Source: Guyparkeria sp. SCN-R1
GTDB taxonomy: Bacteria; Pseudomonadota; Gammaproteobacteria; Halothiobacillales; Halothiobacillaceae
Length of the DNA stretch: 64,000 nt
Assembly: GCF_003932495.1 (NCBI RefSeq)
Contig: NZ_QZMT01000007.1
Location: 1 to 64,000 of the forward strand
Reading direction: 5' to 3'
Shown: one piece after another, positions 3,563-44,018 of the stretch
Layout of the letters: each line of letters begins with the position of its first letter
How positions within the stretch are numbered: the stretch's first letter is position 1
Made by a program: the position numbers and the translations under genes
Notes under the pieces: generated by a model
The model's input: only the letters and a program-made list of their open reading frames with translations
What the model was told of the DNA's origin: nothing
The model's database searches: none

Positions 3563-3656
3563 GGGAAACTCTGCACGGATGCCATGCCACTCTGGCCTGG
3601 CGAGCCGTTCGTGATCAAGGCACGCAGAGCGGTACGGCATTCGTACAGAGTTTCCC
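3563..3656. repeat. MITE-like inverted-repeat element, short copy
   Basis: A 94-bp element whose 32-bp ends (3563-3594 and 3625-3656) are inverted copies matching at 27 of 32 positions, beginning GGGAAACTCTG. TA at 3561-3562 and TA at 3657-3658 look like a target duplication. It is the 268-bp element at 40044-40311 with a 174-bp interior missing between two CAAGG repeats. It ends 24 bases before the rhodanese start codon, so it may sit inside that gene's promoter or leader. It has no coding capacity. Confidence 0.8.
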
Positions 3657-21763: not shown

Positions 21764-22192
21764 TCAGATGGCCGGCGTCGTGCCTTGGCGTTGCGCCAGT
21801 GCACAGCTGTCGCTGTAGGCATCGCGCATCAGGTTGAAGCAGGTGGCCAGGAACAAGCTCTGCAGTTCCACGAACTCGTCAAAGGATTCCCGCTCGGCCT
21901 GTTGGCCACCTTCGGCGCTGGTGAGCAGCGTGTCGGCGGACTTGTGCATCTGCACGTGCAGTTGGTGGACCTTGTTGAATTCGCCCTGACGTCCCGGCGG
22001 GGCGCCGTGGCTTTCCAGAAAGCGGCCGAAACGGCATTCATGCTCGCTCAGTGCCGGCCGCGGCGTGCCATACAACAGCACCGCCATGATTCGTGAGTAC
22101 CAGTCGAAATGCCAGTAGGTGACTTCCTCGAAGCCGTCGATGAAGGCCTGGTAGTCGAACGGTTCCGGCAGGTTCGGGGACGATGCACTCAT
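21764..22192 (-). CDS. Free-standing CZB (chemoreceptor zinc-binding) domain protein
   Basis: A 142-residue protein that consists almost wholly of a CZB-like domain. Candidate zinc ligands are His28 (YWHFDW), Cys53 (HECRFGRFL) and His79/His83 (HVQMHKSA), the same His-Cys-His-x3-His order as the CZB domain of the zinc-responsive diguanylate cyclase DgcZ. There is no attached receptor, GGDEF or kinase domain. The start at 22192 (MSASSPN) is chosen because the upstream extension runs into the repeat element at 22233-22511. It converges with the CBS protein gene 18 bases away. Confidence 0.75.
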   Translation of the reverse strand: MSASSPNLPEPFDYQAFIDGFEEVTYWHFDWYSRIMAVLLYGTPRPALSEHECRFGRFLESHGAPPGRQGEFNKVHQLHVQMHKSADTLLTSAEGGQQAERESFDEFVELQSLFLATCFNLMRDAYSDSCALAQRQGTTPAI

Positions 22193-22232
22193 GAGTGATT
22201 TCACTTGCGGTGTGGGGCGTGGGGTCAGTCTA

Positions 22233-22511
22233 GGGAAGGTCTGCAGGAATAGCCAATGCCTCTGCGGGTCGCCAGGCGTCCAGATGCAAGGCGCAGTGCG
22301 CCGCCCAATGGCCGTCGCCATTGGCAAGCGCTGCAACACCGCAGATGGGCGCCTGGCGGCCCGCCCGAAGGGGCTTACCGGCTTGCCCGCCCTCGGTATT
22401 GCCGATTCTCGCCGGGCCCTCGTTATCATATTGGGCCCGCCTTCGAATCGGCGCCTTGATGGCGAAGAAGCCGGTAAGCCAGAGGCATTGGCTATTCGTG
22501 CAGACCTTCCC
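22233..22511. repeat. MITE-like inverted-repeat element, full-size copy with two internal arms
   Basis: A 279-bp non-coding element. The 31-bp ends (22233-22263, 22481-22511) are inverted copies matching at 30 of 31 positions and begin GGGAAGGTCTGCA. TA flanks both sides (22231-22232, 22512-22513). Two inverted-repeat arms fill the interior: arm 1 stems 22265-22278 / 22350-22363 (one mismatch, with a smaller CCAATGG/CCATTGG hairpin inside) and arm 2 stems 22372-22384 / 22468-22480 (perfect, with GCCGATTC/GAATCGGC nested). It lies in the gap upstream of the CZB gene. The remaining 85 bases to cbbY show nothing. Confidence 0.85.
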
Positions 22512-22596
22512 TAAGCGATTTCATTTCGCCCTGACAGGCTGATTCGAACATTCGGCCATGACGACTTGATGTCGCCAGGGCGGTATCGAATGCGGA

Positions 22597-39953: not shown

Positions 39954-40043
39954 GGGCAGTTCAAACGCTGTGTGAGTGGGTGGGGCAGTGCCGTTTCGGG
40001 GCCCGACTCTAGCACGCCGTTGCGCGCTTCGCCGGGCGGCTCA

Positions 40044-40311
40044 GGGAAACTCTGCACGAATGCCATGCCACTCTGGCTTGGCGAGTCGTTCGTGATCAAG
40101 GCGCGATGTCGCCGGCGTGTCGGTGGCCACGTCAAGACATCGCAACACGGAGCACGGGCGACTCGCCAGGCCCCGACGGGCGCGCCTTGAGCAGGGCATC
40201 TGCTGCGTTGTCGTCCTTGGAAAGGGAACAACCCTTTCGCGGCGGACGAACGCCTTGCATCTGCCCGGCTCAAGGCACGCAGAGCGGTATGGCATTCGTG
40301 CAGGGTTTCCC
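40044..40311. repeat. MITE-like inverted-repeat element inserted at the queD stop codon
   Basis: A 268-bp non-coding element. The 32-bp ends (40044-40075, 40280-40311) are inverted copies matching at 29 of 32 positions, beginning GGGAAAC. It is flanked by exact TCA direct repeats (40041-40043, 40312-40314), the second being the queD stop codon on the minus strand. Two internal arms: stems 40075-40088 / 40159-40172 and 40184-40198 / 40262-40276. It occupies most of the gap between queD and folE2. The 90 bases next to folE2 show no gene. Confidence 0.88.
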
Positions 40312-40713
40312 TCAGGGGCGGAAGGTGACCGCCGAGCGCGCGTTTTCCCAGACCGTGACGGCTGAGACCCGGTAGGCCTCCGTGTCGAAGGTCGTGGCCA
40401 GGGCCTGGTGGAAGTAGGCGGCCAGATTTTCGGCGGTGGGATTGACCGTGTCGAAGGGCGGCACCTCGTTGAGGTAGGCGTGATCGAGTTCCTTGGCGAT
40501 CTCGCGTGCGCGGGCCCGGATGACCTTGAAGTCCACCACCATGCCGACCTGGTCGAGCCGTTGGCCGGTGACCTCGATCACCACGCGCCAGTTGTGGCCG
40601 TGCAGTCGGGCACAGTTGCCGTCATAGCCATGCAGCCGGTGGGCGGCGGCGAATTCCACCTCGGTGGTCAGGGTGTAGCTGCCCCCTGACGGCAGCGAAT
40701 ACGCAGTGCTCAT
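40312..40713 (-). CDS. queD: 6-carboxy-5,6,7,8-tetrahydropterin synthase
   Basis: Converts dihydroneopterin triphosphate to carboxytetrahydropterin in queuosine synthesis. The 133-residue protein has the zinc-binding His set: AAAHRLHGYDGNC and ARLHGHNW, plus the ELDHAYLN segment and PTAENLAAY near the C-terminus. It overlaps dxs by four bases (ATGA) and so belongs to the xseB-ispA-dxs transcript. Its stop codon TGA forms one copy of the 3-bp duplication flanking the repeat element. Confidence 0.93.
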   Translation of the reverse strand: MSTAYSLPSGGSYTLTTEVEFAAAHRLHGYDGNCARLHGHNWRVVIEVTGQRLDQVGMVVDFKVIRARAREIAKELDHAYLNEVPPFDTVNPTAENLAAYFHQALATTFDTEAYRVSAVTVWENARSAVTFRP

Positions 40714-43896: not shown

Positions 43897-43937
43897 GGGA
43901 AGCCTCTCGGATAGCCGGCGAGGATTATATCGTCCTA

Positions 43938-43973
43938 GAGAACCTCTGCACGAATCGATAGTGTCTCTGCGGG
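43938..43973. repeat. Solo end of the inverted-repeat element family
   Basis: The 36 bases match the left end of the element at 22233 through its CTCTGCGGG boundary (about 26 of 36 positions), including the core TCTGCACGAAT, and are preceded by CTA as in that copy. No matching right end or arms are found between here and radA, so it looks like a remnant. It lies in the promoter region of xseB. Confidence 0.6.
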
Positions 43974-44018
43974 AACGAGGGGGGTGCGACCAAAGCCGTC
44001 GATCGGATCGGCACGGAT

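Follow-up and report, generated by a model that had tools for sequence, protein, structure and literature searches.

The window, by which we mean the whole 64,000-nucleotide stretch of Guyparkeria sp. SCN-R1 DNA that was analysed, contains a small mobile element in which a terminal stem of ~30 bp closes two hairpin arms (Table 1). The first-pass annotation had described this layout within 22233-22511. The layout was found there, and the exact mobile unit was corrected to 22234-22510 by empty sites in related genomes. Both the terminal inverted repeat (arms 22231-22264/22480-22513, 34 nt, 97% complementary) and the two inner inverted repeats (22264-22287/22341-22364 and 22372-22394/22458-22480) were recovered as claimed. 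Folding as DNA and as RNA gave the same three-way layout, a terminal stem closing two arms. The DNA fold of the element reached -111.2 kcal/mol (z -13.1) and the RNA fold -200.3 (z -14.3), and 0 of 200 shuffles folded equally well in either case. At 277 bp the element is too short for a transposase, and the sole ORF of at least 120 aa that touches it (21764-22429) enters from outside. The second full copy that had been reported in the window is also present.

Table 1. Features of the two-arm element and of its further copies and remnants in the window
Feature	Position	Strand	Basis
Left target-site duplication, CTAG	22230..22233		Empty sites in related genomes
Whole element, 277 bp, GGAAGG...CCTTCC	22234..22510		4-bp duplication statistic and empty sites
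Left terminal inverted repeat, stem strand 1, IS5-group-type end	22234..22263	+	Inverted-repeat search
Arm 1 hairpin, motif strand + (GCAAGGCG ... GCAACACC)	22264..22364	+	Covariance model R1, 90.7 bits (arm 1 is among the model's 15 training rows)
Inter-arm linker CCGAAGG, with adjoining bases CCCGAAGGG	22365..22371		Read from sequence
Arm 2, inverted homologue of arm 1, 109 nt	22372..22480	-	Covariance model R1, 59.3 bits
Right terminal inverted repeat, stem strand 2	22481..22510	-	Inverted-repeat search
Right target-site duplication, now CTAA (1 base off CTAG)	22511..22514		Empty sites
Second full copy, 266 bp, CTCAG flanks 40040-40044 / 40311-40315	40045..40310		Occupied and empty sites
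Arms of second copy	40075-40172, 40180-40280	+, -	Covariance model R1
Deletion derivative, stem and stub of arm 1, 92 bp	3564..3655		End-pattern matches
Solo left-end fragment next to CTAG (43935-43938), without a detected arm	43939..43974	+	Right limit judged by eye

The window site was occupied in the own genome (G000) and in G009. It was empty in five relatives, which carry an uninterrupted CTAG (G001, G004, G005, G006) or an uninterrupted CTAA (G007); G002, where a partial copy adjoins the locus, G008 and G010 were left out of this comparison. The empty site in four of the relatives reads AGTCTAG-G(C/T)GATTT and that of the fifth reads AGTCTAACGATTT. The copy at 40045 was likewise occupied in G000 and G009, and a single CTCAG was found in G001 and G006; its duplication is five bases, compared to four as a rule. 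Identical 4-bp flanks were observed for 35 of the 141 copies with flanks (shuffled mean 10.1, maximum 19), and with the same bounds every other flank length gave at most 2 identical. The 35 exact duplications were CTAG (14), CTTG (7), TTAG (5), CTAA (3), CAAG (2), TTAT (2), TTAA (1) and TTAC (1). With each bound set one base further out, the 2-bp flanks agreed in 56 cases (mean 34.9, maximum 45); these are the inner dinucleotide of the same site. The TA flanks noted earlier are present, but the real target duplication is the 4 bp that contain this TA. Collectively, these results show that the element inserted with a target-site duplication, for example into CTAG.

Further copies had been predicted for the host genome and its relatives and were found in both. 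BLAST returned 62 matching pieces in the own genome, and the end pattern GGRAANNTCTGCACGA, with one mismatch allowed, gave 49 + 45 matches (94) compared to 0 + 0 for the reversed control. From this genome we collected 53 distinct copies with both ends, one of them doubtful; 37 measured 255-300 bp, 3 were longer and 13 were shorter (<255 bp). The doubtful copy, one of the longer ones, is probably an artefact, its right end being common to another copy. The element was matched in 16 of the 40 genomes searched (own included), among them 10 of the 11 of its own genus, and the end pattern was present in 5 of 369 genomes of the class. When named genomes were scanned for a pair of intact ends, 56 stretches came up, of which 55 are from Guyparkeria, Halothiobacillus or Halothiobacillaceae and 1 is from Nitrosomonas europaea. 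In G170, a genome of another family (f147), there were 20 exact end matches, some on contigs that end 142 to 190 bases past the end. Its best four full-length matches were 91-100% identical to the query copy, and two more stood at 74%. With many pieces, several of them at contig ends, the G170 element looks recently active and amplified; a DDE_Tnp_1 match was looked for in this genome and none was found.

Some copies depart from the common form. L035 and L046 in the own genome, of two Guyparkeria subfamilies, carry a similar hairpin-forming insert of ~72 nt inside one arm. A different hairpin-forming insert lies in the other arm of G170:C28:64513-64852. Two full elements nearly abut in L065 (2877-3143 and 3146-3424), possibly because the younger one inserted at the end of the older. 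The window element had no match among plasmid and phage records, and neither L044 nor L381, a relative described below, had one among phages. Both the two-ended pattern and the L381 end were found in 0 viral contigs. The single-end pattern matched 94 viral stretches, 80 of which were examined for further ends (up to 3 mismatches). Six had a second match and none held a credible element, so we attribute the single-end viral matches to chance.

The ends had been described as reminiscent of the IS5 family, and insertion sequences (ISs) in other gammaproteobacteria support IS5-group-type ends. The nearest, L394, lies in a gammaproteobacterium, reads CTAG-GGAAGGTCTGCACAACC...-CTAG over 1172 bp with an inverted partner and CTAG on the far side, and its transposase scores as IS5_4. 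With the element it has the first 13 nt and the CTAG target in common; a full IS with the same ends was not found, none of the ISs carrying the whole of GGAANNTCTGCACGAAT. Similar IS5-group ends occur in other gammaproteobacteria (CTAA-GGAACCTCTGCAAAACTC in L405 and CTAG-GGAACCTCTGATCAATC in L414), and G021, of the Halothiobacillaceae, has an IS5_4 transposase behind CTAG-GGAACCTCTGATTGAAT. A relative of the window element in another gammaproteobacterium (L381, in G563) has a 20-bp end, CTAGGGCCTGTTGACGTTTC, that is also present on two IS5-family ISs (Halomonas and Azotobacter plasmid; inverted partners 20/20 and 19/20 bases). Since its ends are of the IS5-group type, we regard the element as a MITE. 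Separately, a CRISPR-like repeat, TCCCCGCGCACGCGGGGATGAACC, was observed near an IS5-group transposase in L416 (G149).

Searches for a partner transposase gave the following picture. PF01609 (DDE_Tnp_1) had 0 matches in G000, and any match at all in 4 of 12 genomes, so the element family looks orphaned in its own genome. Relatives of the IS5-group transposase at E 1e-40 were absent from G000, G005 and G009. The lack of both leaves present mobilisation in Guyparkeria a supposition and weighs against the mechanism proposed below. No IS-sized pair around single ends (within L264-L283) was credible when judged by eye. The transposases of G001 and G015 were rejected as partners, as their ends differ. 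N. europaea (16 places) was rejected as an IS source: L306 was measured and differs, and the rest gave no credible pair when screened with the end pattern, up to 5 mismatches being allowed. The G170 end had five plasmid matches, at E 0.9 or weaker; the genes near those in Cupriavidus and Diaphorobacter are of IS481 and IS66, not IS5, and the remaining three fall within genes. The ends of L356 and L360 had no match among plasmids. In the mechanism that we propose, an IS5-family transposase acting in trans would recognise GGAANNTCTGCACGAAT and its inverted copy and would insert the element, duplicating 4 bp, at sites such as CTAG, CTTG or TTAG. The insertion and its duplication are observed directly, and that such a transposase was supplied in trans is very likely.

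The first-pass annotation took the arms of the second copy to be unrelated to those of the first. This was wrong, as one covariance model (R1) finds all four arms in the window, and they constitute one ~98-nt hairpin family arranged as inverted pairs. Two arms were obtained in 109 of 113 oriented full copies (L093, of undecided orientation, was left out) and mostly measured 97-101 nt; arm 2 of the window copy is ~12 nt longer than the usual arm. The two arms of the element are homologous to each other in inverted orientation. When 15 arms from eight genomes were aligned, CAAG.CG was invariant and GCAAC nearly so, and the internal-loop motif CAAGGCG...GCAACGC was conserved together with covarying helices. 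In the consensus fold of these arms both sides had changed in 29 of 34 pairs (28 by RNAalifold). The fraction of paired cells was 92.0%, compared to 66.0% when shuffled and 37-41% when slid, and 0 of 500 shuffles reached any of the measures; these figures are not a probability, as the structure was derived from the same 15 related rows. Covariation had been named as a test that the fold could fail, and the outcome strongly favoured it: the fold is maintained through compensatory changes.

Of 299 Pseudomonadota genomes, the own one among them, the arm model matched 70 (E <=1e-4, these E-values being rough), spread over 38 of 154 genera. The 41 loci picked from earlier matches held 71 arm matches, often as inverted pairs 7-8 nt apart. 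In the 24 two-arm elements that we measured, three of them from G039, the core was 200-206 nt, and 23 had a total length of 261-274 bp; the exception was L376, in which stem extension failed. Their ends were of several kinds without visible likeness, e.g. TAGTGTCCTATCCCGC, CTAGGGGGCGTTCTCAATTAG and TGAGCCTATCTCGATGGG, and the linkers CCCTTCGGG or CCCGAAGGG, of the form CCC...GG, recurred among them. One two-arm member, L368:1467-1735, has ERIC- or IS630-like ends, TATACCCAA...TTGGGTATA. It is also low in G+C (31% in one arm), a hint of a link between ERIC and the two-arm family. Plasmid hosts included Azotobacter and Halomonas, where the model also matched (L382, L383, L387); one Pseudomonas plasmid record was matched by BLAST only, and the L370 core had no match among plasmids.

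The core occurs with several kinds of ends in different bacteria. It would be a module paired with different ends in different hosts, and from the same core standing with different ends we infer that ends were exchanged, which is likely. A more tentative extension is that the hairpin pair itself is an ancient core of ~200 nt, repeatedly joined to ends from unrelated transposases, of IS5 groups and possibly of IS630; we lean against it. If it were true, the motif strand of the core, as RNA or as folded ssDNA, would work in cis and spread with any transposase at hand, and the inverted doubling would make the core orientation-independent. It is highly improbable that the element is the decayed palindromic debris of one IS5 element, with a fold that has no function. 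Such debris would fit with the lack of a resident transposase and with the deletion derivatives (13 of the 53 copies <255 bp), but not with deep covariation, conserved size, a conserved loop motif and matches in 38 of 154 genera.

The fate of landed copies was followed at sites shared by two genomes (11 comparisons, 10 sites). Among the base pairs compared, 984 were unchanged, 72 had changed on one side and 4 were compensatory; 3 had changed on both sides without compensation, and 2.6 both-sided changes are expected if the sides change independently. The in-place mismatches were 19 G.T, 20 A.C and 36 others. These counts and the divergence given below omit pairs more than 15 different in length, the nested L019 pair and the redundant L092/L126 pair; copies without both ends were dropped as well. 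Two clean arm losses were observed in place, L078 at 266 bp compared to L045 at 92 bp (58/59 and 39/40 identical) and L106/L116 at 265 compared to L140 at 55 (44/47 and 21/21 identical); the breaks share 7 and 12 bases, respectively. A third loss, 198 compared to 92, is likely, and L022/L115 was rejected as a further case, not being supported as one element. L005 and L054 are inverted between the same flanks, 252/263 identical only if flipped, and L054 is less like any other copy. A second in-place inversion, of L092 relative to L099 (258/266) and L126, is likely, even though other copies match to a comparable degree. For L029/L095, a third candidate, the case is doubtful, since both have closer matches among the other copies. 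Misassembled draft genomes could produce apparent inversions. Landed copies mostly lose pairs and sometimes arms, and at least one lies flipped.

These changes also bear on whether the arms are maintained at the DNA level without selection, correcting each other by template switching in a hairpin or cruciform. Mirrored private end changes in L010, L018 and L027 and a paired change from A-T to G-C at one site between L005 and L054 would be expected from such a process, and in-place inversion and arm deletion at shared break bases are how long palindromes behave. However, one-sided changes outnumber compensatory ones in place by 72 to 4, and template switching would keep neither an unpaired loop motif across genera nor the strand preference described below. 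We consider this explanation quite improbable.

Shared copies diverge by 4.0% in their interiors compared to 8.4% in their flanks, the interior being the less diverged in 10 of 11 comparisons. Change was equally frequent at paired sites and over all sites (86/2126 vs 123/2917), so the slow divergence is not tied to pairing. It could reflect a host-level function or constraint, and it speaks against a purely spread-driven reading because free debris should not lag behind its flanks. L337 shares 97.7% identity with L062, which sits at a different place, and 92.1%, counting gaps, with the window copy; often, copies from different sites are no less similar than same-site copies. Gene conversion between copies may be at work and, given this likeness, could blur every in-place count.

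To compare the strands, G.T and A.C mismatches were counted on the motif strand. In the comparison across genomes, 66 G.T and 22 A.C were found in the basal helices of 64 of 65 arms, a ratio weakened by shared ancestry of the wobble positions and by a model that scores G.T. This count took gapless helices of arms from many genomes and dropped from the 71 matches 6 that were wrong-strand or partial, then 1 of the 65 arms left, which had <12 Watson-Crick pairs. High-scoring arms (20:5) and low-scoring arms (28:9) both showed the preference. Among rare arm mismatches in Guyparkeria copies (up to 12 copies per pair), G.T stood at 109 and A.C at 90 (two-sided p 0.20); when common mismatches were included the figures were 467 vs 301, following few columns. 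An earlier count of 102 vs 92 was replaced by the union of both strand folds, because a restriction to pairs present in both strand folds drops wobble columns. We read these results as indicating that, in the long run, it is as a folded single strand (RNA or ssDNA) that the motif strand works, and that landed copies are not bound by this.

The deep G.T preference could equally reflect an RNA function in the cell, and a structured RNA is a possible reading of the sequence. The element would then be spread by transposition and kept for its RNA, with a role in mRNA stability, as a substrate of RNase III/E or as an attenuator. The very stable RNA fold, the conserved loop motif with its covarying helices, the 66:22 ratio and the slow divergence of landed copies are all consistent with this, and ERIC, a related kind of repeat, affects transcript stability in Yersinia (PMC2229807). 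Against it, recent mismatches are without clear strand preference (19:20 in place, 109:90 among rare ones), and landed copies lose single pairs, can lose arms and can flip. Rfam 15 at the gathering score gave 0 matches in the window and 0 in 20 superfamily loci, and 0 over 22200-22545 even at E up to 1. By crude gene calls, the 52 copies considered showed no preference for gene ends: 22 were tandem, 11 divergent, 7 convergent, 11 overlapped a called ORF and 1 was without a neighbouring gene, with a background of 196 tandem, 51 divergent and 66 convergent gene pairs. Overall, a cellular RNA role is unlikely. The element is thereby a warning that covariation in a repeat, however strong, does not by itself point to a cellular RNA: landed copies here lose the fold.

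The reading that we favour is that of a non-autonomous MITE with IS5-group-type ends and a conserved core of two inverted homologous ~98-nt hairpins, and as a whole we consider it somewhat probable. That the fold, not the letters, is kept in many bacteria on different ends suggests that the fold matters for spread. It would be selected in spreading copies, through mobility or through survival of the intermediate, and not in those that have landed; this part of the reading is plausible, at a little under even chances. Any transcribed strand, or any single strand exposed by replication, would show one arm in the motif orientation. As the arms are inverted copies, the design could be independent of the direction of insertion, which we put forward with some reserve. 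If the favoured reading is right, a non-autonomous element whose fold acts in cis is widespread.

Several known systems resemble the element in part. Parvovirus terminal repeats are T-shaped, with a stem closing two inner palindromes, and occur in flip and flop orientations; the likeness is one of layout only, and the element is not a viral terminus. Among the entries listed from the openly accessible literature, there was no description of the two-arm layout. ERIC/IRU (MITEEc1, MITEPlu5) and IS630 CCC-type ISs are similar in being small, strongly folding intergenic mobile repeats, and the ends of L368 are ERIC- or IS630-like by the end type given in PMC6267812. In contrast to the Guyparkeria element, with its 277 bp, two arms and 4-bp duplications, ERIC is one ~127 bp hairpin with a TA target; it was rejected as a superfamily member, as model R1 fails on two E. 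coli ERIC copies (2.7 bits over ERIC). CIR repeats of Caulobacter and Brucella have two arms and a linker, and bacterial repeats besides CIR are said to have no arms (PMC2229807). CIR repeats differ in being ~110 bp long with GANTC in a loop and in lacking a closing stem such as the ~30 bp stem of our element. The P. fluorescens R0 and R2 MITEs and R200 are intergenic repeats as well, some with the ends of resident ISs, and R0 and R2 differ in being described as one stem and one loop (sections of PMC2718517). R200, known here by description alone, is 320 bp with 47 copies in SBW25, and the same sections do not give its structure (PMC2718517).

With IS5-family MITEs the Guyparkeria element shares terminal inverted repeats, a target duplication and the lack of a transposase gene. 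The relative L381 shares its ends with IS5-family ISs; for the Guyparkeria element, what is shared with an IS5-group IS is the initial 13 nt and the CTAG target. MITEs are usually viewed as ends plus filling, and the core of a typical MITE is a leftover of its IS, or plain. In contrast, the core of the Guyparkeria element is structured, conserved and found with different ends elsewhere. We file the element as a MITE with IS5-type ends whose apparently new part is the conserved two-arm core; here it is the filling, not the ends, that is kept across genera, with strong covariation.
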